The notes beneath the pieces were generated by a model that was given only the letters and a program-made list of their open reading frames with translations, had not been told where the DNA came from and searched no databases. A program made the position numbers and the translations under genes. A DNA stretch of 28,062 nt from a virus: positions 1-28,062 of IMG/VR virus record IMGVR_UViG_3300010354_000475; one strand, 5' to 3'. Within the stretch, counting starts at the first letter, position 1. Each line of letters begins with the position of its first letter. Shown one piece after another: positions 66 to 21,500 of this stretch.

Positions 66-581
66 TTATGGATTTCCAAAAGGATTTTGTTCACTAAAAT
101 CTAAAATTTCGTCTGCTTCTTCTTCAATAATATCATTTTGGGCAAATTTACCCCTTGCATTCAATTTATCTAAAGGATCTGCTAGATTGTTAGTATTTAT
201 ACTTCCAATAGCATAGATCGCTCCAGATTCAGATCCAACTATATTTTCTCCAGGTTTAAAGTTTCCAGTAATGTTTGAAACTTCAAGTATTTTGGAATTA
301 GCATTCCAAGACTTAACTCTAGCCTTAACGTTGCTAACACTTCCAGTTAATTTTTCATTATAAATGTAAGTTCCAAAACCTACCATAGTATTTGGTGGAC
401 CTATTTGAACAGTTGTTGAAGTATAACCCAATCCAGAATTTATAATCCTAATAGAACTTACAGATCCAGATCCGGAAAGAATTGCTGTAGCTGCTGCACC
501 AACACTTGAAATCCCAGTGAATGTAATTGGTGGTGGAGAACTATATCCAGATCCAGGATTTGTGACTGTAATAACTCCCAC
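66..581 (-). CDS. 14: gp14 neck protein, C-terminal part (separated from the N-terminal part by a frameshift)
   Basis: This frame holds the C-terminal 171 residues of neck protein gp14. The apparent start is a GTG that overlaps the stop of the upstream frame (TAGTG), but the frame stays open upstream and encodes a natural continuation (FVGGGGSGAKAQAV) back to the break near 636-639. I therefore read it as the tail of one gene, not a separate protein. It has two GxGY modules (GSGYSSPPPITF and GLGYTSTTVQIG), then a segment with FKPGENIVGSESGAIYA. It ends in a hydrophilic, acidic tail with KLNARGKFAQND and DFSEQNPFG, of a type I recall ending cyanophage gp14. Restoring one base gives a 468-residue gp14, well above the 256 residues of T4 gp14; the extra length is the repeat-bearing extension. 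Confidence 0.85.
   Translation of the reverse strand: MGVITVTNPGSGYSSPPPITFTGISSVGAAATAILSGSGSVSSIRIINSGLGYTSTTVQIGPPNTMVGFGTYIYNEKLTGSVSNVKARVKSWNANSKILEVSNITGNFKPGENIVGSESGAIYAIGSINTNNLADPLDKLNARGKFAQNDIIEEEADEILDFSEQNPFGNP
194..201 (-). promoter_or_regulatory. Possible internal late promoter element (TATAAATA) in gp14
   Basis: The minus strand reads TATAAATA at 201-194, an exact match to the core of T4-type late promoters, about 140 bases upstream of the gp15 start. It could give extra late transcription of gp15 and later genes. It lies inside coding sequence (AGT ATA AAT ACT, residues SINT), so in AT-rich DNA it may be chance. No other support is visible. Confidence 0.25.
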
Positions 582-1471
582 TATTCCATCCCCAATGACT
601 GCTTGTGCCTTAGCACCAGATCCACCTCCACCAACAAAGTTATTTTTGGAGCAACTGTATATCCTGCTCCTGCATTTGTGAGTTGAACTGCTTGGACACG
701 TAAAAGCTTTGGATCTGATTCACACAAATCAACGATCCCACTGATCATAACTGCGACACCAGTAGCAGTTACTCCACCTGGAGGAGCAGTAGAGAATACG
801 ACCTTTGGTGGGTCAGTATATCCAGAACCCCTATTAGTTATAGTAACGTATCTTACGCCACCATTTACAATAGATGCTGTAGCAGATGCTGTAGATCCAA
901 TACCAATCATTTGAATTGTTTGAATATACCCTTCATTTTCAATATTATCATCAATAAAGTCTATGTTAGTATCAATAACCTCATCTTCATATCTAAAGAG
1001 TTCGCAAGTTAATTCATAAACATAGTTTTTTTGAAGTTGATAGAAAGGTTTTTCGTGCTCAACATATTTTATTTCAAATAAACGGTCTCCTAATGGGAAG
1101 TAAATTAAATCACCCTCTTTAGGACGAGTTGCAAGTTTAACATCAGGCAATTTTTCCATCAAAGGTGTAATATAATTACTAAATCTTTCTTGTGAGATTA
1201 TGATTTTTAAATCATCTAATTCCTGAATACCAAACTTAGATAAAATAGTTCCTTGACCGCCATATCCATCATATGAATCAACATATGCTTCAATTGGATA
1301 TGCAAAATTAAATTCAGACTCTATAACCTCTTTTATGATAGTTCTTTCTGTTGCATATTGTCTAGGCAGATAATATACGTCAATACCATACATTCTAATA
1401 GATTCATTGATCAGGTCTTGCATTAATCCCTGTTCTGCTTTAGAACCGTTTAAGAAGAATGGATTTAGCAT
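581..1471 (-). CDS. 14: gp14 neck protein, N-terminal part
   Basis: gp14 forms the neck with gp13: the proteins bind the filled head at the portal and complete the surface that the tail attaches to. The first roughly 200 residues are the conserved core as I know it from cyanophage gp14: MLNPFFLNGSKAEQGL, then a segment with IDVYYLPRQY, YDGYGGQGTILSKFGI and LIYFPLGDRLFEIKYVEHE. After this come GxGY modules (GSGYTDPPKVVF and GAGYTVAPKIT). Up to residue 278 the sequence is sensible. The last 18 residues (from LLVEVDL) are out-of-frame translation caused by an apparent missing base near 636-639, ending at TAG. The intended protein continues in the frame that ends at 66. The start lies four bases after the gp13 stop and has no clear Shine-Dalgarno sequence, so translation is probably coupled to gp13. 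Confidence 0.92.
   Translation of the reverse strand: MLNPFFLNGSKAEQGLMQDLINESIRMYGIDVYYLPRQYATERTIIKEVIESEFNFAYPIEAYVDSYDGYGGQGTILSKFGIQELDDLKIIISQERFSNYITPLMEKLPDVKLATRPKEGDLIYFPLGDRLFEIKYVEHEKPFYQLQKNYVYELTCELFRYEDEVIDTNIDFIDDNIENEGYIQTIQMIGIGSTASATASIVNGGVRYVTITNRGSGYTDPPKVVFSTAPPGGVTATGVAVMISGIVDLCESDPKLLRVQAVQLTNAGAGYTVAPKITLLVEVDLVLRHKQSLGME
636..639 (-). other. Apparent one-base frameshift site inside gp14
   Basis: On the minus strand the sequence reads ATA ACT TTG TTG GTG GAG. Adding one T (ACT TTT GTT GGT GGA) restores a GxGY-type module (KITFVGGGGSGAKAQ) and joins the two halves of gp14 in one frame. The change falls in a short A/T run (aaa on the plus strand). The site does not match the X XXY YYZ consensus for programmed -1 slippage. 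A missed base in a homopolymer or a genuine lesion is more likely than regulated frameshifting. Confidence 0.85.
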
Positions 1472-2693: not shown

Positions 2694-5600
2694 TTATGCC
2701 AACGCAATGACTCTAAGATCTCTTAGTTTTGGAGGATATACCTGGATATTTGATGTTGCAACAAGTTTAATACTGAAATATCTAAATGCTGCAAGATTAT
2801 CTATACTAAATTCATAATCCTTGAAATAGTTTTGTGAATTGCCATTACCAAAAAGATCATTATTTGCCACAAACTTATCAGGAGTTCCATTACTATTATT
2901 GATATCAATAACTTCTCCCGAAATAATTCTATTAGCATATCCTGGGAATGGATAGTAAATGGGAGTTTCAGATGGATCTTTTAGAATAGAGTAGAATGCT
3001 CTTAAATCAGAATTTCTATTGATATATCCAGCAACATATACTCTCAATGAAGTTGCAGCAACCTCTAAACTAATTGGTTTAGTTGCATAAGAGAATGCAA
3101 TAGGATCTTTGTTTAGAGTTGATGGTCTTGAATCATTTACATAATCTACAATTGGATTATTAATTCTGTTTGTAACCAGAATTGCACCAACTCTGTCAAG
3201 GTCGATAACTGGACTTAATCTATCATTTTCTGTTGTTAAGAAAGCTCTGATTTCTAAAGATTTATTTGCAGGTTGAGCAGCTAATTTAGTGGTTTCATTA
3301 ATCTTAGAGCAAATCAAGCGACTTGTGGTTGGATAGTTATCAACATTAAAATCAACTCTTTCATATCCTTGATCAACGAATGAAGGTTCGACTCCACTCA
3401 CACTTGTTGCAGAAACAGTTCTCATATCAGAAGCAACACTTGTTTTTGGTAAAGTCATTACCTGAATATTTGGTTTGATAATTTCAAATTGAATATTCTT
3501 GGTTGCTTTAACATTTGAACCACCTGCTGATTTAGAATCATAGAAATATAAACTTCCTAAAGATGGATCTCTATCTGAAGTATCAATTTTTAATTTATAG
3601 TAATCTAAACCAATTGGATTTAAAACACTAGAATCTTGTAATTCGTGGTTCTTATTAATTCTTCTCAATGAAACACCATTTAACTCATACTTATAAACAT
3701 TAGTATCTGCAAAATATGACTGAGAAGGAGTGCTATCAAAGTTTCTAGTAATGCCAGTTAATTCATTTCCAGAAACACCAGTATAACGAATAATCTCATT
3801 ATTAATGCGTACATATCCTGGTGTTGTTGCTCCTACGGATACGTTTTCAAATGTCCCAAATCCAACTGAAGAATTCAGAGGAATTGTTGAAGTTACTTCA
3901 GAAGTTGCTGCAAGATTAGAACTTAGTCTTGCAGGAGGAATATCGGATTGGACGTTTGAAATGGATACTGTATTAATTTCCGAATGCATTCCATGATTTT
4001 GGTGATTTACTTTAATATGCAATCCATCGGTAACAACTTCAATATCATTAATATAAACATCAGGAGTATAACTAAAGTTTAAGTTCGTATTAATTCCAGT
4101 ATTTTTGGTGTATCTTAAAGTGTAACCAATCCCCGTTAAAAAGTCTCCTTGAACATTATCAATAATGAGTTGATTATATGCGGTAATATTATCTACAGTA
4201 AGAAGTAGATTTCTACCTAAAGTTTGATCTCCAAGTTGATCTACTGCAAGAACATCACCTTTTTGATATCCATAACCACCAGTTCTGATTGTTGCGGCAA
4301 TCGCAACTCCAGCATTACCAGCACCATCTGTTCCTATTGTAATATCAGCAGTCGCATTCCTTCCACTCGAAGTTGAATTTGCAAGTATAACATTTTCATA
4401 TACAAATGAAGTTCCATTTGAAGGAGTATATCCAATTCCAGAATTAGTAATAGAAATACTTGCGATTGAACCCGCAGCACCGACATAATTACCAGTTGCT
4501 CCAGTAACTCTTTGAACAATAGTATTTCCTAATGCAAACTCGGGATCACTTAATGTGCTTGAAATACTTACTTTAATTTTCTTTGAAGAAATTTCAAGAG
4601 GATTATTAGCAAGAGTTGAAATTTGTTGATTATTTTCGGTCAAATCTGGATTGAAGAAACTTACATTTCCGGTTTGAACAAAAACTGCCGAATATAAGGT
4701 AAACTTAAGATCTTCAAATTGACTTGGCGTCCAAGTTGATGCATTCTGAGATTTAAACAGAACACCCACTTTACTGATATCTGGTTGATTAGCGATAATG
4801 ACTCTACCAGACTCTGGTAAAGATGCTGTTGTAATATCAACTTCACCAAGTCTAGAAATCCAAGCATAGTAATTAGTAGAATCTGATTTTAAAACTACTG
4901 CGTGCTCAGTATTTCCTTTTAGATATACTGGCGCTTCAAATTGAACTCTTGTTGCAACAGACCCATCTTCAGAAACTTGAATGTCTTCAGGATTCACGAC
5001 AATTTGACTGAATGGATATATTTCACCAGTTGGAAGACCAAGAGACATTGGCCTTAACTCAACAATTAATGGAAGAGTATCGTCTTTAGATTGCAAGAAT
5101 AGATCTATTGCTGTTACAAATCTTCCCTCTGGTGCAGTAATAGTAAATGATTGTGCCAGGGGATCAAGTCCTACTGGAGGAATCATACTATAGGAAGCAG
5201 TAGTTGAAGATTCTTTCCATTTTAAGAGGAAAGCACCAGAAGCTCCATTACCTCCGGCACCACCATCAATGCCTCCTCCTCCACCACCGCCATATGTTCC
5301 GCCGGTTCCACCATTTTTAACACAATTTGGTATTTCACCTGGTCCACCGCCGGCGCCTGCAAATTTAATACCATTTCCACCAGGCCCTCCAGTTGGACTT
5401 CCGCATCCTTCTTTATCTCTTGAGTGACCACAATTTCCACCACCTTCTCTACCAGATCCTCCACCATAACCACCTCTTAGAGTATCCGAAGAATCATATT
5501 TTCCATCTTCACCTTTTCCACCACCACCACTAGTGTCTCCACCAGATCCTTTTGATGTACTAGATCCACCAGCACCACCTCTGGCAATAATATTTTTGTT

Positions 5601-8600
5601 TACAATATAACTTGGTTGTCCATCTTCTGCTTTAACATCAGTAGTTGCTCCTCTTCCACCGGTTCCAACGATAACAGTGAGAACTTCTCCAGGAGTAACT
5701 GGAATAGTTCTAGAGCAGACACCAGCACCTGCGCCGCCTCCACCTGGCTTAGTAGATCTTCCAAATCCACCGCCACCGCCGCCACCGACGCCAGATGCTT
5801 GAACAGAAGTAACTCCACTTGGAACAGTAAATGTATAAGTTCCTGGGGTTGTGTATAACCTAAATTGCTCTATTTTATCTGAAGATGGGCTAGGTGAAGG
5901 ACTTGGTCCAGGAGAAGGTCTTGGACCGGGGGAAGGAGTTGGACCAGAAGGAGAAGGACTTGGCCCAGGTGATGGACTTGGAGATGGTGAAGGAGATGGC
6001 CCTGGTGAAGGAGATGGGGATGGAGATGGAGTAGGTTCTGGAGTAGGTTCTGGTTCTGGAGTAGGGAATGGTTCTGGTGGCTTTGGTGTTGGGGGTGCAG
6101 GAACTTCGACTCTTACTGGTTGTGAGAAATCGGTTGTTGAAGCTGGAATAGTTTGTGTTAGAGTTCCCAACTCTCTCAAACTATTCCTGAGTGTTCCGAT
6201 AGTTTCTTGAGTTGTTGTAATAGTTCCTTGAGCATAAAAAGCTGCTTCTGCTAAACTATTCAAAAGACCTGGAACAGTTGAATTTGATTGTAAACTAGAA
6301 AGTCTAAACAGTTTAGATCCTGTAGTAAATCTTGGATTGCTTGGTACACCAGAATTTGGAATGAAGAATGAAGACATCAACGTTCCAATATTATCAGTTA
6401 TTAATCTGACTTCTTGAACTATTGCAACTGCTCCGCTAGTTTTTCCAATAAGTCTCATGCCAGAGGATACATATCCATAAAAATTACCAATTGCTTGCTC
6501 TGCAAGAAGGAAAGTATCAACGTTTAAAACAGTAGACGATGAAGAATAGCTGGAAGGAATATTAGTGCTTCTATCGTATGGATTTAAACCATAAATTGAT
6601 GTTGGAGAATCGTATCTACCCTGTTTATGATTTGGTTGACACAATCTAAATCTAATAAATGCATCTGTTGAAGATGAAGAGCTGGTATCCGTTTCAACTG
6701 TTTCACCAATTCTGAATACCCCAGACTCCATTTGAATTTCAAGGAGTTTTGGAACCATAAAGCGACTTACATCTTGCCCATCAAAGAAAGCATACATTTC
6801 TGTATAAGGCTTTAACTTTCTTGAAATAATTTCAATATTTCTTGCACGACAATATGTTGCAATATCTACTGTTACAACATTAGATCCATAAGATACTGAA
6901 GTATCAGTAAAAGTAATGCGATTTGTAGAACCGGTTCTGGTAGAAGATCCAGTTTTATCAGTTGCATAAACAACATCTTGATACCACTTTCCATCTAATT
7001 CATATTTTTGCCCTCTAGATACTTCTCTAGGTGCAGAAGTGTTGGTCCATGAAGTTTCCCAAGCACCAAAAATCATTGGAGCCCATCCACTATTGCTATC
7101 CGGAGCAGACTCTAATTCAACATCAATAGTTCTTATCTCTTCCCTAATCCCTAAGTTAATGGGATCTAAAACGATAGGATCTAACCAAATATCAGAAGAT
7201 GGATTGATATCTGCAATACCTCCATAAAATGTTACTAGGTATGGAGTTACATTCTCAACTCTTGTTGCATATGGTTGTATAATTTCTTCAGTTTCAGAAT
7301 AATCTAAAGTTAAAACTCCTTTGCCAACTGTCCCAACAGATTTTCTAACGTTATTTCCAACAATAGATTGATTTGACTTATAATCAAAATCATCATTATT
7401 GAAATTGATATTACCTGCAGCATCAGTGTGACCGAGAATCAAATCGATAGAAGTTGTATAAACTGATGGTCTTAATTGAGAATTTTCAATGTCGACTGAA
7501 TTTTTAGTAATCTGAGTGGTTTTTTGAGATATTAATGTTGTAAAATTATCTACAAAGAAACCAGATTTAAATCTATCTAAACCATTTGCATCCTTAATTG
7601 TAAAGTTTGCGGTTTCAGTTTCAAGTAAAGATAGAGTTGTATAAAACTCAAGATTTTTAATCCTATCCTCAAGTTTTTTAATATCACTCATTCTATAACG
7701 CTTGTGATGCGATAAATCAATACCTGCAGTTTCGTAAGAACATAAGTATGCTGGTAGTGTAACAGTAGCAATATCTAGCGAATCTGTTAAGTTAAGAGGT
7801 GCTTTAGGGTTTTCAGAAGGATCTCCAATCAATAGTTGGAAATTACCTTCCTTAGATAAAATAATTTTATCAATCCTAGGTAAGTAATAAGAATAATCGA
7901 GAATAATATCCTCATCCGACGCTAAGATAGGTAAATTTTGATTATAAACGTTTGTGAAATTATTTGATAATGATTCAAAGGGTGATCTTGCATTCAAAGA
8001 AACAGTGTAATTTGATACTCTTGGTCTTAAATCTAAAATATTATAATTTTTAAGATTGTTTAGAGAAGGAATATCACAATAATCAAATTGCTTATAAGAA
8101 TCTACAGTTACAAAGCTTCCTGGATCTGATGGAGAGAAATCAGTAGACTCAAAAACAATCTTTAATTTCTTACGAGGCTCTCTTGCAGTTGATTTTCTAA
8201 CTATTCTACCATAGTCATAAAAAGTATCTCTTTGACCATTATCCAATGTATAACTATCAGTTATATTTCTACAATTTCCAGAATTTAAAGAATTTATAGA
8301 TGCAACTATTCCAGATTCTTTAAATTTTACAGTTTCTCCTGTAGAAAAACTAGAAGAATTTAGTGTAATGTAACTAACTGTATTGTTATTAATTTTTTCA
8401 ACTAAAATTGCTACACAGTTACTTCTTTCTCCAACAATTTCTTCACCTAAAATCATACTTGATGTTGTTACATCAGATAAACTCATTGTAATCGATGGGA
8501 GTGTAGGCGCAATAGTAGCACTATCAGTTTCAAATACTCCTAATAATTTTACAACATCTGGATAATTTAAACATATATCTTCATCATGAACTCTAGTTCC

Positions 8601-11033
8601 ATATGGATAATTACCAAATGTTAATCCATCATTAATTGTTGTTTGACCAATTCCAGAAAAATTATATTTTGATTTATCTACAACAATACTATTAACTCTA
8701 TTTCTAGTTTTAACTTTAGCACTTACATTAAGTTTTTTAATTGTATAAGTTAAAGTCGCGGTTCCATTTGCTAAAGATAGACCATTTATTCTAAGACTTT
8801 GACCACCAAGAGTAATAAAGAACTGATCTTCTCTTAATGGCTCAGTATTTCCATTAGAGTAAATGACCGCATATCTTTCTTCATCATATGACATAAATCT
8901 TTCATCATCTGCCAAAACAATAATTTCAGAAGTATTGCTTGAAATGGTAATTTGTTTTTGCCTTCTAATAATAATTTCAGAATTTTCTAAATTAGTTGAA
9001 GCAATTTTGTTATGAGGAAAAACAGTATAAAGTGTATTGTCTGTTGAAGATTGTAATGATGATGTTAAAATTTTAAAATCGGAAACATTTAAGGCCGATG
9101 CTGGTAATGTGCTGGCACATACGTCCGATACTGGGGTAACTTGAGTAATTGTGATACTCTTTTCACCAACGCTAACAATTTTTGCATAAGTTGGCTCTTC
9201 TTGACCGGGAGTAGAAAATGAAATTATATCATTTTCTAACGCAACTTTATTAAAAACAAAACTAGAACTAGTAACAGTGCTAATTCCAAAACTATATGCG
9301 GATATATTTACTGGACCAACAAAAGATTTTTGCTTCTGAACAATATCTGCAGTAAATGTGGATCCGGTTCCCACAATTCCATATACTGATTTAAAATCAC
9401 TAATATCATATGTTTTAAATGATGTAATAATTCTATTATTTTGAATACTATCAAAACTTAATCTTTCACCTTTTAAGAACCTACCGTTTACATTATATGC
9501 AGTAAGAATTCCAGAATTAACTACAGTATTTTTAAGAAAAGCAGTTGCTCCACTAGAACTTCCTTTGATGAAAGTTGGTACTTCTAAACTTATAGGATCG
9601 TTAAGAGTAATCTCGGTATATGGTTGAACATCAAATAGTGTTATATCCCATTCATTTATATTTTGATTTAGTGGATTATATGATCCAGATTCTAAAGCAA
9701 AATCATAAACCCTTGCAATTCCAATTTCTTTACCAGGAGCAGTATTTTCATCTGCACCTACCCTATCTGATCTAAAACTTAATGTGTAACTTGTTGAAAT
9801 GCCTAAAGGTGGAGTTCCGTGAACTCTATTCAACGTAAATGTGGATCCTGTATTATATACTAGACTTTGATTAACTAATGTCTTTGTTACTCTTGGTTTA
9901 TTAAAATCAATAAATGTTGGATTTGGAACATTAACTTCAAATCCTCTGATATAAGCTTTACCTGGTGATAATTTATAAACACCTAAAGATTCGCTTGCAG
10001 TTCGGTTTCCATAAGTCTGCTGCCCCTCTTTAAATATACCCTTATTGCCTTTTAAATTATCCAGAGACTCATTGACGGTAAGTTTAAAAGGAGTTACATA
10101 ATAATCTCCAGACTCATCGTAAGTTCTTCTAGCGAATTCATTTGCCAAAAGATTATATTCGGCATCTTTTTGAACTTTATCAGGAACTCCATCCCTAATT
10201 TTAAATAGTTCTAGATATCCCTCGTCCTGATTTTCATTAATAGAATATTTTGCTAACTTTACCTTAATTGAAAATCTGTCTGCTCCAGGAGCAGCATAAT
10301 TAGAAAATCCTTGAGAATTATCTGCAAGAGTTTCATCATCATCAAAAGTTATAACATCTTCAAAAATTTTTAATCCTACACTATAATTTACATTATTAGA
10401 ATTTGGATCTAATAATAGAGTCTCTTCATCAACGTTTACAAAATATCCTCTAATAAAATAAACTCCAGATGAAATATGGACAGAAGAACCAGTAACAGAT
10501 GAGTTTTGTGAGATTGTTCTACAAATACCCTGCCCCGCTTGAATTGTAGTTACTCCTCCCGCAACAAAAGGAACATCCTCTTCTGTAGTAATTATTTCAC
10601 CATCGTTAAACTGTCTTTTGTTATCAACACTAGAATCTCTATATGAAACATAGATTATTGTATTTCTAGTGGGAGAATCGCTAGAAGATAAAATATATTC
10701 AACTCTTGCTCTAACTTTAGAATTCTGACCTATAACATATTTACCTACAAGATCCCCTAAATAGGAATCTACCGAAAGACCAAGATATGATGGTTCAACT
10801 TGAATACCTTCATAATAATTATCATAAACAACATTGCCACCAAGAACCGGAGATCCTTCTTTAAAAATATGAGAACCAAACTTTTCAATCTGATTTTGAA
10901 GAATTGATTGTAAAGTTGTTAATTCTCTAGCTTGAACTGGATATCCTGGCTTAAATAAAACCTTATAAAAATTCTTTTTATCATCAAAATCGTCAAAATA
11001 AGGAGATACGTTAAGATTGGTTTCTTGTGGCAT
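2694..11033 (-). CDS. DUF4815-type giant virion protein, baseplate periphery and likely adhesin carrier (2779 aa)
   Basis: This huge structural protein takes the place of T4 gp9-gp12. The N-terminus MPQETNLNVSPYFDDFDDKK, followed by FKPGYPVQARELTTLQSILQ, is the DUF4815 signature of T4-like cyanophage structural proteins. Around residue 865-915 are two GE-type modules. Near 1115 is SDIKKLEDRIKNLEFYTTLS, a coiled-coil-like segment I recall from this family. Residues about 1644-1717 are a Pro/Ser linker (PSPSPSPGPS), and about 1720-1938 a glycine-rich domain with four Cys. The family backbone then resumes with PPVGLDPLAQSFTI and a beta-rich region with a GxGY module (GIGYTPSNGTSF). It ends PPKLRDLRVIALA. 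DUF4815 has no proven biochemical role. From gene order and the adhesin-like insert I infer a baseplate-rim protein that mediates host contact. It starts six bases after the gp8 stop, with no Shine-Dalgarno sequence seen. Family assignment is confident; function is inferred. Confidence 0.85.
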   Translation of the reverse strand: MPQETNLNVSPYFDDFDDKKNFYKVLFKPGYPVQARELTTLQSILQNQIEKFGSHIFKEGSPVLGGNVVYDNYYEGIQVEPSYLGLSVDSYLGDLVGKYVIGQNSKVRARVEYILSSSDSPTRNTIIYVSYRDSSVDNKRQFNDGEIITTEEDVPFVAGGVTTIQAGQGICRTISQNSSVTGSSVHISSGVYFIRGYFVNVDEETLLLDPNSNNVNYSVGLKIFEDVITFDDDETLADNSQGFSNYAAPGADRFSIKVKLAKYSINENQDEGYLELFKIRDGVPDKVQKDAEYNLLANEFARRTYDESGDYYVTPFKLTVNESLDNLKGNKGIFKEGQQTYGNRTASESLGVYKLSPGKAYIRGFEVNVPNPTFIDFNKPRVTKTLVNQSLVYNTGSTFTLNRVHGTPPLGISTSYTLSFRSDRVGADENTAPGKEIGIARVYDFALESGSYNPLNQNINEWDITLFDVQPYTEITLNDPISLEVPTFIKGSSSGATAFLKNTVVNSGILTAYNVNGRFLKGERLSFDSIQNNRIITSFKTYDISDFKSVYGIVGTGSTFTADIVQKQKSFVGPVNISAYSFGISTVTSSSFVFNKVALENDIISFSTPGQEEPTYAKIVSVGEKSITITQVTPVSDVCASTLPASALNVSDFKILTSSLQSSTDNTLYTVFPHNKIASTNLENSEIIIRRQKQITISSNTSEIIVLADDERFMSYDEERYAVIYSNGNTEPLREDQFFITLGGQSLRINGLSLANGTATLTYTIKKLNVSAKVKTRNRVNSIVVDKSKYNFSGIGQTTINDGLTFGNYPYGTRVHDEDICLNYPDVVKLLGVFETDSATIAPTLPSITMSLSDVTTSSMILGEEIVGERSNCVAILVEKINNNTVSYITLNSSSFSTGETVKFKESGIVASINSLNSGNCRNITDSYTLDNGQRDTFYDYGRIVRKSTAREPRKKLKIVFESTDFSPSDPGSFVTVDSYKQFDYCDIPSLNNLKNYNILDLRPRVSNYTVSLNARSPFESLSNNFTNVYNQNLPILASDEDIILDYSYYLPRIDKIILSKEGNFQLLIGDPSENPKAPLNLTDSLDIATVTLPAYLCSYETAGIDLSHHKRYRMSDIKKLEDRIKNLEFYTTLSLLETETANFTIKDANGLDRFKSGFFVDNFTTLISQKTTQITKNSVDIENSQLRPSVYTTSIDLILGHTDAAGNINFNNDDFDYKSNQSIVGNNVRKSVGTVGKGVLTLDYSETEEIIQPYATRVENVTPYLVTFYGGIADINPSSDIWLDPIVLDPINLGIREEIRTIDVELESAPDSNSGWAPMIFGAWETSWTNTSAPREVSRGQKYELDGKWYQDVVYATDKTGSSTRTGSTNRITFTDTSVSYGSNVVTVDIATYCRARNIEIISRKLKPYTEMYAFFDGQDVSRFMVPKLLEIQMESGVFRIGETVETDTSSSSSTDAFIRFRLCQPNHKQGRYDSPTSIYGLNPYDRSTNIPSSYSSSSTVLNVDTFLLAEQAIGNFYGYVSSGMRLIGKTSGAVAIVQEVRLITDNIGTLMSSFFIPNSGVPSNPRFTTGSKLFRLSSLQSNSTVPGLLNSLAEAAFYAQGTITTTQETIGTLRNSLRELGTLTQTIPASTTDFSQPVRVEVPAPPTPKPPEPFPTPEPEPTPEPTPSPSPSPSPGPSPSPSPSPSPGPSPSPSGPTPSPGPRPSPGPSPSPSPSSDKIEQFRLYTTPGTYTFTVPSGVTSVQASGVGGGGGGGFGRSTKPGGGGAGAGVCSRTIPVTPGEVLTVIVGTGGRGATTDVKAEDGQPSYIVNKNIIARGGAGGSSTSKGSGGDTSGGGGKGEDGKYDSSDTLRGGYGGGSGREGGGNCGHSRDKEGCGSPTGGPGGNGIKFAGAGGGPGEIPNCVKNGGTGGTYGGGGGGGIDGGAGGNGASGAFLLKWKESSTTASYSMIPPVGLDPLAQSFTITAPEGRFVTAIDLFLQSKDDTLPLIVELRPMSLGLPTGEIYPFSQIVVNPEDIQVSEDGSVATRVQFEAPVYLKGNTEHAVVLKSDSTNYYAWISRLGEVDITTASLPESGRVIIANQPDISKVGVLFKSQNASTWTPSQFEDLKFTLYSAVFVQTGNVSFFNPDLTENNQQISTLANNPLEISSKKIKVSISSTLSDPEFALGNTIVQRVTGATGNYVGAAGSIASISITNSGIGYTPSNGTSFVYENVILANSTSSGRNATADITIGTDGAGNAGVAIAATIRTGGYGYQKGDVLAVDQLGDQTLGRNLLLTVDNITAYNQLIIDNVQGDFLTGIGYTLRYTKNTGINTNLNFSYTPDVYINDIEVVTDGLHIKVNHQNHGMHSEINTVSISNVQSDIPPARLSSNLAATSEVTSTIPLNSSVGFGTFENVSVGATTPGYVRINNEIIRYTGVSGNELTGITRNFDSTPSQSYFADTNVYKYELNGVSLRRINKNHELQDSSVLNPIGLDYYKLKIDTSDRDPSLGSLYFYDSKSAGGSNVKATKNIQFEIIKPNIQVMTLPKTSVASDMRTVSATSVSGVEPSFVDQGYERVDFNVDNYPTTSRLICSKINETTKLAAQPANKSLEIRAFLTTENDRLSPVIDLDRVGAILVTNRINNPIVDYVNDSRPSTLNKDPIAFSYATKPISLEVAATSLRVYVAGYINRNSDLRAFYSILKDPSETPIYYPFPGYANRIISGEVIDINNSNGTPDKFVANNDLFGNGNSQNYFKDYEFSIDNLAAFRYFSIKLVATSNIQVYPPKLRDLRVIALA
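5217..5880 (-). other. Region coding a glycine-rich, adhesin-like domain
   Basis: This part of the 2779-residue protein encodes residues about 1720-1938. It opens with YTTPGTYTFTVPSGVTSVQA, the strand motif that commonly precedes phage glycine-rich domains, and continues with many Gly runs (GGGGGGG, PGGGGAGAG, YGGGGGGG). It closes with GAFLLKWKE. Long Gly runs in phage adhesins, such as Gp38 of T-even-type phages, pack as polyglycine II helices; a like fold here is inference. The DNA is visibly richer in G and C than the flanks because of Gly codons. Confidence 0.8.
5884..6110 (-). repeat. Tandem Pro/Ser codon repeat (linker)
   Basis: Degenerate tandem repeats (on the plus strand, units like ggagaaggacttggt and gatggagatgga) encode a Pro-rich linker of about 73 residues. 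It starts PAPPTPKPPEPFPTPEPEP and turns into PSPSPSPGPSPS. The repeat lies directly before the glycine-rich domain. Such a stretch probably forms an extended, partly rigid stalk. Repeat number may vary between strains by slippage, and short-read assembly could miscount it. Confidence 0.85.
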
Positions 11034-11039
11034 GATAGG

Positions 11040-12563
11040 TTAGAATTGCAAAATGACTTTAATATCTTCTTTCTGATTTGCAGACCTTGTTATGGATGGT
11101 CTATTATCAACATAGATTATATTTCCGGTATATTTTTTTACCTCAGGGTTTGATATGCCATTAGTAAAATTTTGCCCGAGATAAACTGTACCATTATTTA
11201 TTACCGTAGATATACCACTAAACCCACTATCAATTTCAATAGTGTTTGAGTCTACATTAATGTTTCCTCCAGTAAATGCATTTTGAACTAATCCATAAGG
11301 AGAATCCGTTGCAACTCCAGACTTTGTATATCCATACAAAGACCTGTCTTGCCAGTATTTTAATACACCAGTTTCATTGTCATAGGACACTGCTCTTCCT
11401 ACAGCAGTTCCAACTCCAGTTATGGTTTGTGTAAATGTTATATTTGCCGGAATCACTGCAGCACTTGCCCCAGGTTCCTTTAGTTTTAAAGCATACAGAG
11501 CACTTGCTTTTTGTATCGACAACACCGATGTAGAATCAAATGCTTCTGGATTTTCAATAATTCCAATTCTTGCAATTTTATTACCAACAATAAAATCAGG
11601 ATCACCAATATCATTTTCAATTCTAGAATAAAGTAAAATATTAGTAGAACCAAGCTCTCTATAAATATTTGCCCCATGCCCACCTTTTGGTGGAATTATA
11701 ACATCAAATTTTGGAGGATCGACAAGAAACAAACCAGAATTTTCTAAATCGACAGTTCCAAATGTATATCCAGATCCACCATTTGAAACAAATATCTTAT
11801 CTACCGTATTATCACTACCAACAACAATTGTAGCTGTTGCTCCTTGCCCATCACCTTTTATGGGAATATTTTGATAAAGACCTGGTGCTCCTAAATTAGC
11901 ACCCCTTTCAAGTATATTAATAATTTTTATTTGTCCACTCGAAGATGCATTCAACCTCACTGCAGCATTTTCTTGATTAGTTGTCCAATTTTTAGGCAAT
12001 GGAATAAAATTTGTACTATCAAATTTGACAATTTCATTTGGTCTAATTGTATAAAGATACTTCCAAATATATCCATCACCACTAGTTCCTGCTGCTCTTG
12101 GTTCAAGATCAGTAAAGGTTGGTTCATCCAAAGAAGGATTACCGGTTAAAGACTCCGGTGTTGTTCCATTCTGCAGACAAATATAAACTTTATAATCTTT
12201 TGTGACCACATAATAATCGGAAGAGTATAAAGATGTTGCCTGAGTTTGATTAGCTCTTTTGTCGATACTAATGTCATGGCGATACATATCGTATATCCTT
12301 CCAGATTCCCAATTTATTCTTCGGACAACTGGAGAAACATCATTAGCGGAAATTTTTTTCAAAGAAAACATAGTATCCCAGCACTTATTTTCCTCATCAA
12401 AATTATCACGCTGAAATGGAGGAAGAGATTCCCAAGAGCTGAGATATTCTGTTGGATTTGACAATCCTAAAAATACATAATATGAGTTTGTTGAATTGTT
12501 AATTTTATCCAAAAAACCCAAAGCATTAGATATTCTAAGTTGATCAGTTATAATTGCTGACAT
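11040..12563 (-). CDS. 8: gp8 baseplate wedge protein
   Basis: gp8 is a core part of the baseplate wedge; in T4 (334 residues) it dimerises and binds gp7 and gp10. Here it has 507 residues, long like other marine gp8 proteins as I recall them. The N-terminal half is highly characteristic: NSYYVFLGLSNPTEY, VRRINWESGRIYDMYRHDIS, YYVVTKDYKVYICLQNGTTP, then SLDEPTFTDLEPRAAGTSG and GYIWKYLYTI. Around residues 215-320 it carries a GxGY module (GGSGYTFGTVDLE) and a segment with DFIVGNKIARIG, shared in style with gp14, gp7 and the DUF4815 protein. The C-terminus ends ANQKEDIKVILQF. It is the only gene here preceded by a convincing late promoter. The ATG has only an A-rich leader and no Shine-Dalgarno sequence. 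Confidence is very high from sequence and order. Confidence 0.95.
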   Translation of the reverse strand: MSAIITDQLRISNALGFLDKINNSTNSYYVFLGLSNPTEYLSSWESLPPFQRDNFDEENKCWDTMFSLKKISANDVSPVVRRINWESGRIYDMYRHDISIDKRANQTQATSLYSSDYYVVTKDYKVYICLQNGTTPESLTGNPSLDEPTFTDLEPRAAGTSGDGYIWKYLYTIRPNEIVKFDSTNFIPLPKNWTTNQENAAVRLNASSSGQIKIINILERGANLGAPGLYQNIPIKGDGQGATATIVVGSDNTVDKIFVSNGGSGYTFGTVDLENSGLFLVDPPKFDVIIPPKGGHGANIYRELGSTNILLYSRIENDIGDPDFIVGNKIARIGIIENPEAFDSTSVLSIQKASALYALKLKEPGASAAVIPANITFTQTITGVGTAVGRAVSYDNETGVLKYWQDRSLYGYTKSGVATDSPYGLVQNAFTGGNINVDSNTIEIDSGFSGISTVINNGTVYLGQNFTNGISNPEVKKYTGNIIYVDNRPSITRSANQKEDIKVILQF

Positions 12564-12595: not shown

Positions 12596-15500
12596 TTATA
12601 GTACTGTGCTATATCCAACATATTTTAGATTTTTAAACCTCTGGATTATCGGATTTGATCCAATTCCAGAAATTTGATCTTGATATGTCTTGAATTCTTT
12701 TGGATCTGTTCTATCGGTAAGATTTGCTATCTTACCCCAACTATAATTTGCATATACTTCATCGTAAGAAGAAATGTTTATAATATCTGGATCAAAAGAT
12801 TGAACCAAAGTTGTTATTCTATTTACATAAGTTGTTATACCAATGGTATTAACAGGTATTTGTACAATCTGTCTAGAATATACCTGATAAACGTTGTTTA
12901 TCTTATCACCAGAAGTAGAAATGCCACTTATAGATCCATCATTTTTTAATGAAACTACGCCCGATCCAATATTTGAATTACTAATTACAAAATAATCTCC
13001 AGAATTCAATTGACTTATAGTAATAGCAGAACCAACTATAGTATCCCCAATAACAATAGAATTTCTTAAATATGAGTCTTTAGGAATATAAAGATCAAAA
13101 ATTAATGCATTACTAGAAATTCCGACTATGGTTGTTCCAATACCAACAACTTCACCAAAATCACCGACAAAGGATACATTTTTAATTATTTCAACTTCAG
13201 GAGATGGTTCATCGATAATAATCAAAGGTGTTTTTATTTCAGTAACTTTAAATCTTATAGGAGTATCAAGAACTGTATTTCTATATGTCAACCCAACTCC
13301 AACATTATCAAATGTTCTTACTTCTAAAATATCTCCAACTTTATAATTAGAACCACCGTCTTTAATATTATCAGCATTAAAGTTAAGAACAGGTAATTGA
13401 GTAATAAGATCGTTTTGAATAATAATATCTACGATTCCACCAAAACCAACTCCAGTTGATGTTTTAAGTCTTGCATTATAGAATGAGCTGTTTGATGGAT
13501 TTAAAGTCTCCGGATAACCAGAACCATTACTAATAACTTCTAAGTTTTTAATAGGTCCATATGTATATCCATATCCTGCATTTGTTATATCAATATTAGT
13601 TACAACACCATTACTAATAGTTGCAACTCCAACAGCATTACTTGAATTTGCCGACAATACTTCAACAACTGCATTTAATCCAGATTCTTCAAACCTAAGT
13701 TCTTCACCAACAATAAATGTAGATGGAGTAATAGGAACATATGATATGATAGGATTAATTGTTGATATTCCAGAAAGAATTGCTATAGTATCACTTTCAA
13801 CTCCAATAATAGTTTCTCCTAAAATAGAACTTGACACACCAGTTGTTGAAATTCCAGATTGATCAATTATTGAAGTCAATGACATTGTGTATGCAATTCC
13901 AGAAGAAATTGGAGAATTCTGAATTAGCACTTTAGGTGCCTGAGAATACCCATATCCACCATCAATTAAGTTAATTGAAGAAATACTTCCGGACGAAACT
14001 TGACAAGTTGCTATTGCACCTTTAAGTGGAGTTTGATCAATAATTTTGATTATAAATTTATCTTTATCGACCATGTTTTCAGCATCATTATCGAAGAATG
14101 TCTTTAATGACTCAACATATATTTCACTGCTACCAATCCCAATATCCTGTATAACTGTTGTAGATGGATAAATTGTAGTTTCATACCAATCTCTATTTTT
14201 ACCAATATTGACACCATCAATAACTAAATCAACATTCTGTTTTGAGAACACTACTGGTCTTAAGAAATCAATATTCTGCGAAATACCTCTACCTAAATAT
14301 GGATTTGTATTTGCGTAATCAGAAGAAACAACATCAGATACTATTCTTAGATTTTCATTAAATTTCTTTTGATCATTTACGATGGTCAATCCATCACCAA
14401 CTTTGACAGTTTCTAACAAATCAACATCAATAACGTCAACTTCTTCATTTCCTCTGTAGAAAATAATAGAAACTCTATCTTCATACTTAGGTGGTTCTGG
14501 GAAAGTAATAATACTTCCACCCTTGAAAGTATATCCTTCTCCAGGAATTTGGAGTATGTCATTATATAAAACTATCAGAGTTGCCTGAATATCAAGCGTA
14601 GATCCCCTCTTTGCTCTAATTGATCTAGGGGCACCATTTATTTTAATAGGGAATACTCTTCTGTTTCCATCAAATAAATCATCAAAATTATCGATAACAA
14701 GTAGATCACCAATGGACCAAGCAGAAAACTTAGTATTATAGATGCTGTCAACAAAAATCTTAAATTCTGAAAATGTAAGTGAAGAATCAGTAGGAATTCC
14801 ATCTATTCCCCCAATAGGAATTGTAAGAATATCCGATTTTTTATATCCATATCCAGAATTTTGAATATCAAAATCAATCACCTCTCCACTTTCACCAACA
14901 TTAATGTTTATCTTCGCTCCAGTTCCAATTCCACTAGAACCTGATAAAGTACTATAAACTAAAGGAATATTAGAATATCCAACTGGAGAATCAAATACAA
15001 CTTCTGGCGGAGAATATCTTCTAACTAGAACATTAGTCCCAGAAGAAACCGCAGAACCAAAAGAAGTTTCGGAATATATAAATGTATTTCCAATTCCAAC
15101 TATTTTTAATAATGCAGAAGAATTAATCGAAATATAATCTCCAATAACAATATCATCTATAGAATTTAAGTAGAATACAGTAGATCCAGATGAAACTGAT
15201 ATTGAGGCACTAGTATTAAACTTATCATAGAAACTTGTAAATGAAATTCCAGGATTTACAAGATTGAATGAACTTGAAATATTTCCACCAATAACAGTTG
15301 TAAATCCAATATAATATTTTTCATAGATTTGGTTACTCTCAGTTCTAATTCCAATATCAACTAATTCTGTAGTCAATGCATCTAATTTGATAGCGACTGG
15401 TGTGGATTGTGGAATTGCAACTTCTGTATTTTTAGATAACGTAATTGTCGACGAAATAGAATTGTAAGAAATAACAGGAGACGAATATGTAGATGTTCCA

Positions 15501-18500
15501 ATTCCAACATTACAAGTTATTTCTCCAGAATACGCAAATTTTGAGAATAGTCCTCTTTCTTCAACGATTGGAATAATATTAGTTCCTATGGAAACTGTTG
15601 ATGCAGTAGAGACTATTATTTCTTTTCCACCAGATACTCTATATCCAGATCCAGAGGATCCTATTGAAATTGAAGAAATTTGACCGCTACTATTAACCTG
15701 AGATATACCTCCAGCAGGTTTTAATGGTTGATATCCGCCACCAAATGTAGATCCAACACTCAATATGATGCCACCCGAAGGAATATTTGTAGTATTAATA
15801 TCATCTATAATGGAAAAGTCTTTTTCTGGATCTTTATTAAAGACTATCGTAGTTTGACCACTTAAATTTAATCCTAATTCAAATGCACCATTATTAGTTC
15901 TAAGTTCATTATTTGGAATCTGTAAAATATCTTTAATCAGGACAAAAAGATTGGATGTTGATATTCCACTAACTGGAGATCCATTTTCTTTAAGAGTGAA
16001 TACTGTTGTTATTCCATTAAACTCATTTGATAAATCATCTAATAAAATATTATCACTATAAGTTATCGAAGAACTATTTGTTGTTCCCGATTTATTAAAT
16101 ATTCTACCAGAGAAAGAGGAACTGCTTTGAATTCCGAGATAATCAACTTCATCATATCTGGGATTTTCTGCAACTATAGGAAGTTTTCCATAAGGTGCAT
16201 CGTAGAAATTGATTTTATTCCCTATAATATTATAATCACCTTTTAGTCTTTCACATACAGATCCAGTGCTATGAATTCCTGGAAGAGTTCCCATCCAAAA
16301 TCTATTAACAAGTAAAGTATTAGTTGAACCAAATCCAACAGATTTGACTCTCATAATTTCATCATCTACTTTAAAAATATCACCTGCAATAAAAATACTT
16401 GGATCATTAACTTTTACTCTAATATCTTTCAGAGCAACATTTGCAAATAGCGTTGTGGTTTTCCCTGCCGATACGATAGGAGATTGAATCATATTATCAA
16501 TCGTGATCAAAGATCTACTATTTCCACGTTTTCCTGTAAATGAATGTTGAGAACCCACTCCATAAGATGTTAATTTCAAATATTCGGGATATGCCTTCAA
16601 AGCTTCCGATGCAGATGCTGCAACTCTTACTGAAAGATCATTAACCTTTACAATATAGAGATTTGAAGGTAATTGATCCGTAAGTCCAATACCGGCAATA
16701 GTTGTTGTAGCTATTCCTATTGGTTCATCTGCACCAAAGTCATAAACTACTTCTTCACCAGTTGAAAAATAATGATTTGGAATGTTTATTTTATCTGCAG
16801 ATAAGTTGACACCAGAAGAATTATTTCCCCTGAAGGTTCTCTTCATAATAGGAAGTTTTTTATGATAAAGATCAAAAGATCTCTTTATAGCATTTTCCGT
16901 TCCAATATAGTCGGAATTAAAACTTACAATCTGAGCTTCATTTAAATCAAGAACAATCTCATTTGGTGGAATATCTGTTTCAGTAATAGTTTTAATTCCA
17001 TTATAATAAAATCTTATAGAAATATTCGCATCTACCGAAGGTATAAATGATAGATAAACTCTTCTTCCAATTATTTGTGTTGCAAAAGTTCCCAGACCAA
17101 CTAAAGAATCATCAGTAATTATAGATCCAAATTGTGTATGATAAACATCAGTTTGATTATTTAATGTAGAAAGTTCTAAAGATTGATATTTAAAACTAGA
17201 ATTATTTTGAATTGACATGTAATAATATCCACCACCATATTCATATGAATAATTGTGGAAAGTAATTGCAACTCCAACATTTCCGGAAGGAATATTAATA
17301 AATCCAGATTCTAATCTGGCATTATTTTCGGATAAAACACCGCCAGATGTTGCATTTTCATCTCTTACTGATAATTTAAAAGCATTCACTTCTATAGTAG
17401 ATCCATATCCAACATATGGAACAAGGTCTAAAATAAGATTTGAACCCTGAATATATGCGGAATATGTAGCAAAACCAACTGGTGGATTAATGTTTTTGGT
17501 AAACAACCTTCCATATTCTGTAACATATGCATTTACCCCATCGTGAATGATATTCAATTCAGTAGAGTCTCTATAAGTTCCATCTAAACTATTGGATGTT
17601 AAAATGATCTTAGAAGCCCTATATGAGATAGGGATAGACGCAACAGTAACAGTATTTGTTGTATTTTCTGGAACAACACTGACATCATTGGAAAGATTAA
17701 CAATAGATCCAACATTGTAACTCGTAACTGTTGTGCTACCTAAACCAACAAATGTATCAAATAAAGTATAGGAAACTAAATCAATATCAAAATCATTAAA
17801 TTCATAGTCAAAAGGTTTAAATTGAACTTGCCCTTCATCTCCACTAATCACAAAATCAAAAGTTCCAAGTTCATTGAAAGTTTCCAATCTTCCATATTGA
17901 TTTACAAATCCATTCAAATCATCATGTATTAGAGAAATTATAGAAAATTGTCTTTCATTAAAGAAAAGTTTGTCTTTAACATAAGCAAAGTATTTTCTAT
18001 GCCTATTTTGATAGATTGGGAATTTGTCTACAATTGCAAATCTTTCTGCCCTTGGGATATTGTTAAATTGATTACTAAAATCATCTATCATTAACACTCT
18101 ATTTCCAATGGACTCTGAATAATCTTGTATTTCGCGGGTATTGAATATAATTTGGTCAGATACTATTCTTCCACCCAAATTATATGCATTCTCAGAAACC
18201 ATATCAAAATCATGATATGAGTTAAGATCAATAACTTCAAATAAATCCGAGACAGAATTTAATTCCGAATAAGAAACAGTAGTAAATCCAACAGAAGGTG
18301 TTAAAGATTCTACATCCAAAGTTCCAAATTTTTTAAAACCTACAGTGTGGTTTAAGCTACTGACGGGATCATTCCACTCGGAAAATTGAGTTTTAGATTT
18401 AAGAACATAAGAGAAATATTGATAATAGTCACTATCGTGTATTCTCTGAACACTATCATTCAAGAATCCAATATTAGTATCCCAACCTCTTTGAACAACT

Positions 18501-21500
18501 GAGAAAGAATTAGTGCTATATTCCGCATCAAAAAACTCTACTTTTCCAACAATTCCACTCAAGTTTGATGTTTTACCAGTAATTCTATCACCACTTACAA
18601 ACTTATCATCTGAAAGAACACTTACAAATTCATTTTCCCTATCCCAATACTCTACAATACCCGTATATCCACTTGTTGTTATAACTTCCTCTCCCAAAAT
18701 AAAATTATTTTTTTGCAGTGTAACTTCAAATGTTGGAAAATAGCTTTCAGGAACAACGTATCCAAGGGAATTAATCGGAGAGTATGTTCCTGGAATTTCA
18801 CCATCACTTAAATATGGTGACATGTCGATAGTAATAGATGCTCCGCTTCCACCTATTGCTGCGGAAGATAGATAAATTTCAAACAATTCATACCCATAAT
18901 CTTCTGAATTAAGACCTCTAACATTAGTTGCCTCCTCAATCTCTCCAGATTCATTCAAGAAAGTGGAACTTACTTTAAAGTTTTCGAGTAAAACTTTACT
19001 TCCAACAGAAAAAGGAAAATCCGCCAAACTACTAAAAGCAGTATTAAATGTTAATGTCAATAACTTGGTTTCCTCATTATATGATGTCGATCCAGGATCT
19101 ATGTTAAATCCATTAGAATTATTAATAGGAATCAGATATGGTGTTTTATTATAAAGACCTGAGCTATTTTGAATTATTTCAATAAGAGAATCTTGAGGAG
19201 AAAACTTTAACTCCGCCTGTTTGTCTTGGACTTTAGTTAATCCATCCAAAACAATTATTGTTGGAACAGTCGTATAATTCTTACCAATGGAAGTAACTTT
19301 AATATCTTTAAAAATACTTAATGGTTCTACTTGAATAATTTGAGGTAAATTTCCGGTAGGTCTTAAACTATAATCAGAACTATAGTCAAATCCTATATTT
19401 TCAATTTTAACTTTTTTAGCAGATCCAATATCTTTACTGTATGGGAATACAATAGCACCAGATCCAGTTTTAGTTGAAACGGAAGTAATTCCAGGAAGAA
19501 CTCTATATTTTCTATCTTTTGATAAAACTTTAACATCATGCATCTCACCTAAAGTAGAATAAGAATCTGTAATATATGAGATAGATGCCTCTGAATTAGA
19601 ATATATGGTTTTTTCAGGTCTTTCTCCGAGAATATATTCTATAAAATTACTTCCAACATTATAAACCTTATGATTACCACTATAGACACTATTTTCAATC
19701 AAAAGAGTGCTACCATTGTCAATGTTTTCTTCGTCAATAATATATTCCAATTGACTGTTTGGAACATTATAGTTAATATTATCTAATTCAAATCTATAAT
19801 ATAATCTAGACGGAGTCTTATCACTTATCTTCAGTTCCACTGCAGCATTATTTGTAACTCCTACTTTTCCCATCTTCTTTACACTGAAGAAGATATCTTC
19901 TTCGGTTTTAGTAAATGTTTCTGTAAAATTAGGATCTTTATATAGATTAAATCTAAATGCAGAATAATTAATCTCATCATTAACAAATGATAATGATTTA
20001 TCCGTTAGATCAAATTTAATAGTTTCATTTCTGTATAATTTTATAGAAGGATTAACTAAAGAAAACTCTCCGAATGAACTGGTATTGATATCTACTATAT
20101 TTGGATTTATTGAAATTGCTTCATAATATGTTTCAGATAATTTTATACTATTAATATCAATAACAACAACATAATATATTTGATTATTCAGCAATGAAAT
20201 ATCTGGATCTTCAGATGTAGTTGTATGAATAATTTTATCGCCAGTAGAATATCCATGGTCTGGGATAAAAATAGAATTAGAACTTGTATCTACATCAATA
20301 ACCGTAAATGCCTTTGGATTTATAACTAATCTTCTATTTTCTTTGTTATACTTTACAACAATTGTTCTATTTGTTTTTGGAATATTGGAAACTTCAATAT
20401 TTTCATTAAAAAACAATGATGGATTTTTAGTGGTTGTTAGTCTTGCAATATTTTTAATAACTTTACCAATTTGAACATTATAATTTGTTCTAAAACTATG
20501 ATAAGCACTACTTCCAGAAGAAGTAAAATATAGCAATCCTTGCCCACCAAGTGGATTCAAATATTCCCCAGATGTAGTTAATCCTACTATTACTGTGGAA
20601 ATTCCAATGTGATCTTGATCATAATTATAAACATAAAACTCGTTACCATCAGATAGAGAAGATGAAGATATCTTATCTGTAGAAACTCCTAATGGTGTAC
20701 CTGAATTTGCATAGTATGCAATTTTTTCACCAGTTTTTAATCCATGATTTGGTAGATATATTGATCTGGTTCCAATTTCACGAATTTGCCATTTAGTGAC
20801 AAATGAAGTAACTCCAATTCCAGATAATGCAGATGAGTCGTAATCAACAATAATTGAACCAATTCCAACATTGAGAACCTTTGCTTTCTGAATGGAATTA
20901 AAACTTATATTAGAAGATCCTACTAAGTTAATATAATCACCAATTTTAAATTGGCTAGCATTAGAGGGATTGTTGAAAATTAATCCTGTTCTTAAAACTG
21001 TAGTAACACCAATAATAACTTCTGCTTCAGTGTCAATTGCAACTTGATAATTTAAAGGAATTGTGTTAAGGAAAATAGTAGTGCTTAGTCCAACGGTTCC
21101 GAGACCAACAGAGTTTGATGGGTTGAAATATAATTCTTTATTAGTGGGATAGATTTTATCAGTTAGATTAACTAAAGATGAAGATTCCACGGTGCTAATT
21201 TCAAATCTTCTTGGCTTCTCCGTTAAAGTTGATCCAGAATAATACGTTGATAATCCAACTCCTCTTTTAACTCTTATAGAAGAAGAGGATAAGTCGATAT
21301 TCAGTATTTTAATCTCTTCCCCTTCCTGAGATATATAAATGTCATTGGGTTTAATTGCATAATCATTCAAATTACCACTAACTTGAAAAGTTGTTATTAT
21401 ACCAGTAACAGAACTTGGTTCAACATTTTTTGTTATAGATAATTGATTTGTAAAAACATTTATTCTTGATTTTACATTCTTTTGATTATTTGTAAATATC

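Follow-up and report, generated by a model that had tools for sequence, protein, structure and literature searches.

The tail fibre gp24 of cyanophage Pam3 (PDB 7ypx, 7yfw) has a TNF-like core with glycine-rich loops, and its glycine-rich domain, conserved in the stem and hypervariable at the tip, has been proposed to bind the receptor (PMC9608196). In a Klebsiella phage fibre resembling Pam3 gp24, mutations linked to host adaptation are located in the glycine-rich domain (PMC12671077). Gp38 of Salmonella phage S16 (PDB 6F45), a T-even-like adhesin in which variable segments lie between glycine-rich motifs, has a role in host recognition (PMC6630733); it caps gp37 as a separate protein, and its middle domain is different (PMC9608196). 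In phage Bxb1, polyglycine-rich domains are associated with the central fibre protein (PMC13252515). On the baseplate side, the pelagimyophage and cyanomyophage genomes that have been compared share five proteins, one of which is VrlC/DUF4815, and in the published pelagimyophages and cyanomyophages VrlC and gp14 flank a host-recognition cluster (PMC7029224).

The window analysed here, i.e., the whole stretch of DNA, is a virus record of 28,062 bases from IMG/VR and belongs to a cyanophage-like virus that is uncultured. Its minus strand encodes gp6, a protein at the gp7 position, gp8, a DUF4815/VrlC-like protein, two small ORFs, gp13 and gp14, which is the T4 order (Table 1). In T4, the genes for peripheral baseplate proteins and short fibres sit between gp8 and gp13. 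In the window, the gap from the DUF4815 gene to gp13 holds two small ORFs only, and fibre-like genes are located elsewhere. The protein at the T4 gp7 position (4,521 aa; 12596-26161, minus strand) is a baseplate wedge subunit (phrog_2885) and contains a YHYH domain (aa 1282-1376). While gp7 is described as replaced by VrlC in related phages, the window differs from this published substitution in encoding both proteins. The neck protein gp14 (phrog_460; 66-1471, minus strand) is found as two overlapping frames of 296 and 171 aa in the window and as one intact frame of ~472 aa in the clade relatives L004, L005, L014 and L018; the break in the window is probably an assembly or sequencing fault. 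Based on gp6 and the DUF4815 protein, the nearest isolates are Synechococcus phages (about 40-56% identity), and the window virus therefore likely has a cyanobacterial host. Searches for the psbA and hli families gave no match in 12 and 7 clade contigs, all of which are partial.

Table 1 Positions of the baseplate genes, the insert and its parts in the window.
Feature	Position (nt)	Strand	Evidence or remark
gp6	26166-27968	-	
gp8	11040-12563	-	
DUF4815/VrlC-like baseplate protein, 2,779 aa, insert-bearing	2694-11033	-	Single ORF; PF16075, E 2.4e-57; phrog_358
N flank, conserved domain ahead of the insert, aa 1290-1640	6114-7166	-	Common to the 277 relatives' loci
Pro/Ser repeat stalk, aa 1644-1716, 73 aa	5886-6104	-	Composition; tandem repeats; low AF2 pLDDT
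Glycine-rich head, aa 1717-1951, 235 aa, predicted TNF-like plus glycine-rich (TG) fold	5181-5885	-	PF21722; AF2; Foldseek
Most variable head loop, aa 1872-1884, candidate contact tip	5382-5420	-	As many as 8 residue types at one site; column variability
Second variable head loop, aa 1903-1907	5313-5327	-	Column variability
Third variable head loop, aa 1759-1763	5745-5759	-	Column variability
C flank domain from ..GLDPLAQSF, aa 1952-2126, most conserved segment	4656-5180	-	phi812 ORF65 homology; 87% clade identity

The frame of the DUF4815 protein is open over its whole length, insert included. Upstream of the insert, the protein matches the Pfam DUF4815 profile at 195 bits against a curated cut-off of 30. 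The phrog_358 match ends at aa 1628, and a phrog_5986 match picks up at aa 1955-2127. Family-like sequence stops at about aa 1640 and starts again at aa 1952-1955 with PPVGLDPLAQSF, and the stalk and the head, which interrupt it, sit directly ahead of the conserved DPLAQSF motif. The profile matches on both sides, together with the open frame, confirm the sequence-only reading, in which a proline-rich stalk and a glycine-rich domain had been proposed to interrupt the DUF4815 family sequence. The restart of the C flank, PPVGLDPLAQSFTI, was found at nt 5180, in accordance with the approximate position given in that reading; the insert itself, previously placed at 5217-6110, is real and extends slightly further at its low-coordinate end, to 5181. 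In the AlphaFold2 (AF2) model, the N flank consists of long beta strands that end at about aa 1640. The C flank (aa 1956-2126) aligns to residues 791-951 of ORF65, a DUF4815 baseplate protein of the Staphylococcus phage phi812 (PDB 9euf/9eui), and these residues start at the same DPLAQSF motif. The body of ORF65 has strongly diverged from the window protein, and, unlike in the latter, no proline rod or glycine-rich head aligned at the junction.

The stalk is composed of 51% Pro and 23% Ser, and its DNA contains imperfect 6/18-bp repeats, consistent with its earlier description as repeat-built. The glycine content of the head is 32%, compared with 6.6% over the remainder of the protein. Pfam Gly_rich_2 matches the head over aa 1728-1939 (61.3 bits, cut-off 24.3; E 1.8e-16; profile positions 1-225 of 226); this family is defined by sequence only, and its name carries no function. 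A tblastn search of the head against phage records returned nothing at 1e-5 and only weak matches at E values up to 10, probably because the low-complexity filter strips most of the head.

The GC content of the insert is about 0.46-0.56, compared with 0.32-0.34 in the flanks. The difference in base composition noted in the sequence-only reading is thus true, but it is explained by amino-acid content, since Pro codons (CCN) and Gly codons (GGN) account for the GC rise. GC3 amounts to 0.12 for the stalk and 0.16 for the head, against 0.15-0.16 outside the insert, and the insert GC predicted from the codon usage outside is 0.481, with 0.486 observed. Recent foreign DNA as the source of the GC shift is ruled out by this prediction and by a GC3 equal to that of the flanks; the codon style of the insert is fully the phage's own.

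AlphaFold2 models of 15 heads had a mean pLDDT of 74 and a pTM of 0.75, with confident core strands (pLDDT above 90) and a pLDDT below 50 in loops 111-153. When the predicted head model was searched against the PDB with Foldseek, the best match was Pam3 gp24 (7ypx, E 2.1e-5, TM 0.47/0.44), followed by the Bxb1 tail tip (9d93, 6.9e-5) and then the ALK/LTK TG domain; the best matches had TM-scores of about 0.4-0.47 and identities of 16-24%. In BFVD, 267 matches were obtained at 1e-3 or better, several of them to proteins with a phage fibre or minor tail annotation. The head is thus predicted, from a moderate match, to adopt a TNF-like plus glycine-rich (TG) fold of the Pam3 gp24 kind. The glycine-rich head family is also found in unrelated proteins, a 749-aa LamG-like plus glycine-rich protein of the same phage among them. 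Moreover, related glycine-rich TG domains are present in the ALK receptor and in giant-virus proteins, and the fold alone therefore leaves the function unfixed. The earlier comparison of the head with T-even Gp38 held insofar as the head belongs to a fold family established among phage adhesins; the closest architecture, however, is the Pam3 gp24 TG domain and not Gp38. S16 Gp38 was absent among the PDB fold matches listed, a PDB sequence search gave chance matches only, and no stand-alone Gp38-type gene for the head is present among the window ORFs; homology to Gp38 is rejected on the fold matches listed.

The placement of the head differs from those of the described systems. Pam3 gp24 forms a trimeric fibre of its own, which has a helical shaft and is served by a dedicated chaperone, gp25 (PMC9608196), whereas the window head is an internal insert on a proline rod in a 2,779-aa baseplate protein, with no separate fibre gene of its own and no chaperone identified in the two small ORFs downstream of the DUF4815 gene. 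The glycine stem is conserved and the tips are variable in Pam3 gp24; in the window head, the variable alignment columns cluster in non-Gly loops. Bxb1 is a mycobacterial siphophage, and its glycine-rich domains are not a DUF4815 insert. In a combined AF2 model of the flanks and the insert (pTM 0.33), the stalk had low pLDDT and no secondary structure; at this pTM, the position of the head relative to the baseplate is not readable.

To compare the junction among relatives, IMG/VR was scanned with the C flank, which yielded 79 loci, and three further scans from other lineages brought the number to 277 loci with both flanks, representing 202 distinct flank/linker combinations in a survey that hinges on the query sequences and on IMG/VR. 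Among the 202, the segment between the flanks is a short linker of 1-60 aa in 156, a split gene in 25, a glycine-rich head in 12, another domain in six and proline-only in three. The DUF4815 stalk and head are thus, as proposed earlier, an insert, absent from most relatives and located at a junction that varies radically between lineages. The isolates S-SM2, S-CAM9, P-SSM4 and Bellamy are without the insert. VrlC of Synechococcus phage S-SCSM1 (L083) resembles the window protein in having a proline-rich rod, made of PRPQPRP repeats, at the same junction, but its rod is without a head. L226 and L225 carry an unrelated insert of ~190 aa at this junction, DUF4214-like by eye and without a Pfam match, and no family was found above the cut-off among the inserts of other lineages scanned with Pfam.

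In the 25 split genes, the first gene closes with 62-311 aa of unrelated tail sequence; the second begins just ahead of DPLAQSF. DUF4815 is split exactly at the insert junction in many of L027-L035, L039, L044, L046 and L237-L269, where the first ORFs end in proline plus Lys-rich or collagen-like tails without a Pfam match. Since the split is seen in many different contigs, an assembly fault is an improbable cause. A tree of the flanks only was built from 78 representatives by a quick method. It places the glycine-head rows on one side of a branch (value 100), and this clade joins the proline-only rows L083 and L026 at a value of 99. Eight changes of insert class are needed on the tree, or five when insert versus short is scored. 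The topology of this unrooted tree is consistent with an order that we infer, in which the rod came first and the head later.

No contig of the window clade lacks the insert; many of these contigs are near copies, with about a dozen distinct heads. Among ten full-length members, the mean identity of the head is 77% (70% outside Gly columns), approximately the protein average, and that of the C flank is 87%. The least conserved segment in the clade is aa 2301-2500 (3534-4133, minus strand), with a mean identity of 66%, below that of the head. The expectation that the insert varies most at the locus is accordingly rejected inside the clade. In close pairs, dN/dS is 0.10-0.17 for the head, 0.06-0.29 for the stalk and 0.00-0.09 for the C flank, all indicating purifying selection; in most close pairs, no other part of the protein exceeds the dN/dS of the stalk, which also shows length changes. 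The average number of residue types per site in the head is 1.20 for Gly, 1.61 for strands and 2.40 for non-Gly loops, with the most variable sites concentrated in a few short loops and the glycine motifs fixed. The suggestion of a fast-evolving module is therefore only partly right: the site is variable between lineages and a few loop tips vary, but no clade member has lost the insert, and selection on it is purifying.

The insert is best explained, with moderate confidence, as a stalked TG-type receptor-binding (adhesin) head in a peripheral baseplate protein, a reading that rests on the literature on the Pam3 and Klebsiella fibres and on three features of the insert: a site that is variable, a rod and loops that vary. 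The nearly unrelated head of lineage L024, described below, also speaks for it. Weighing against it are dN/dS values below 1 throughout, faster change in a segment other than the head, and the modest TM-scores and low-confidence loops of the head model. A host-binding arm of the phage baseplate is plausible and would be a known part in a new placement. The DUF4815 protein, whose gene lies between gp8 and gp13, would be peripheral on the baseplate, and a proline-rich, probably extended rod exits it at an inter-domain junction where almost anything is tolerated, gene break included. The rod carries the predicted TG domain, in which glycine motifs are fixed and a few loops vary, and may keep it away from the baseplate. 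The loop tips may touch a glycan or protein of the host surface, as in Pam3-type fibres, and the head may provide reversible or secondary attachment beside the other fibres of the phage. The junction would be a docking position at which lineages added, changed or dropped display parts.

Alternatively, the rod and the head could be a structural adaptor that docks a tail fibre or another virion protein to the baseplate without host contact, which we consider unlikely. In the next lineage out (L024), the flanks are 56-61% identical to those of the window, whereas the non-Gly identity of the head is 11%, suggesting replacement of the head as the best reading, with very fast divergence as the alternative. 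The L024 head also matches Gly_rich_2 (3.2e-12), and with a profile HMM of the clade heads it scores 10 bits, compared with 41 bits for the clade's separate 749-aa fibre-like protein. A nearly unrelated head on such flanks speaks against an adaptor, as do the lack of any part at the junction in most relatives and the concentration of change in loops, unexpected for a fixed docking surface. The location in a structural protein of the baseplate, the purifying selection and the retention of the insert in every clade member would nevertheless suit an adaptor, and TG domains also form protein-protein contacts (the ALK TG domain is among the fold matches).

It is rather improbable that the insert is a general sticky decoration, which would bind mucilage, polysaccharide or particles weakly and non-specifically and increase encounters without setting the host range. 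Such a role could account for the low turnover in the clade without positive selection and for the collagen-like or Pro/Lys-rich tails that other lineages have at this junction, but a head that is folded and has defined variable loops points to specificity. A near-neutral low-complexity expansion in a permissive inter-domain loop is very improbable, because, even though the junction accepts very different contents down to a gene split and the stalk is repetitive and length-variable, the head is constrained (dN/dS as above), its frame and length are kept in all members, and it has family and fold matches at 1.8e-16 and 2.1e-5, respectively.

A receptor-binding head on the baseplate would probably not act alone, since the same phages have at least one further glycine-rich protein. 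This 749-aa protein of the clade is LamG-like and interleaved with glycine-rich segments (L314, 5635-7881, minus strand), about 27 kb from the head, and the ORF of a 4,372-aa collagen-like protein of the same clade starts downstream in L314 (8414, minus strand). Given these candidate adhesins, the head need not set the host range, and it is probably one of several host contacts.

Tentatively, and with somewhat more doubt than confidence, the DPLAQSF junction may generally serve cyanophage- and pelagiphage-like myoviruses as a docking site, into which lineages plug different host-contact modules. If so, these modules would comprise proline rods, TG heads, collagen-like or Lys-rich tails and other domains, with even the gene split included, and an adhesin would be carried inside the baseplate body itself, on top of the tail fibres. 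A single VrlC/DUF4815 position that repeatedly gains display-like modules would represent a concrete and testable candidate for an overlooked host-contact device in abundant aquatic myoviruses.
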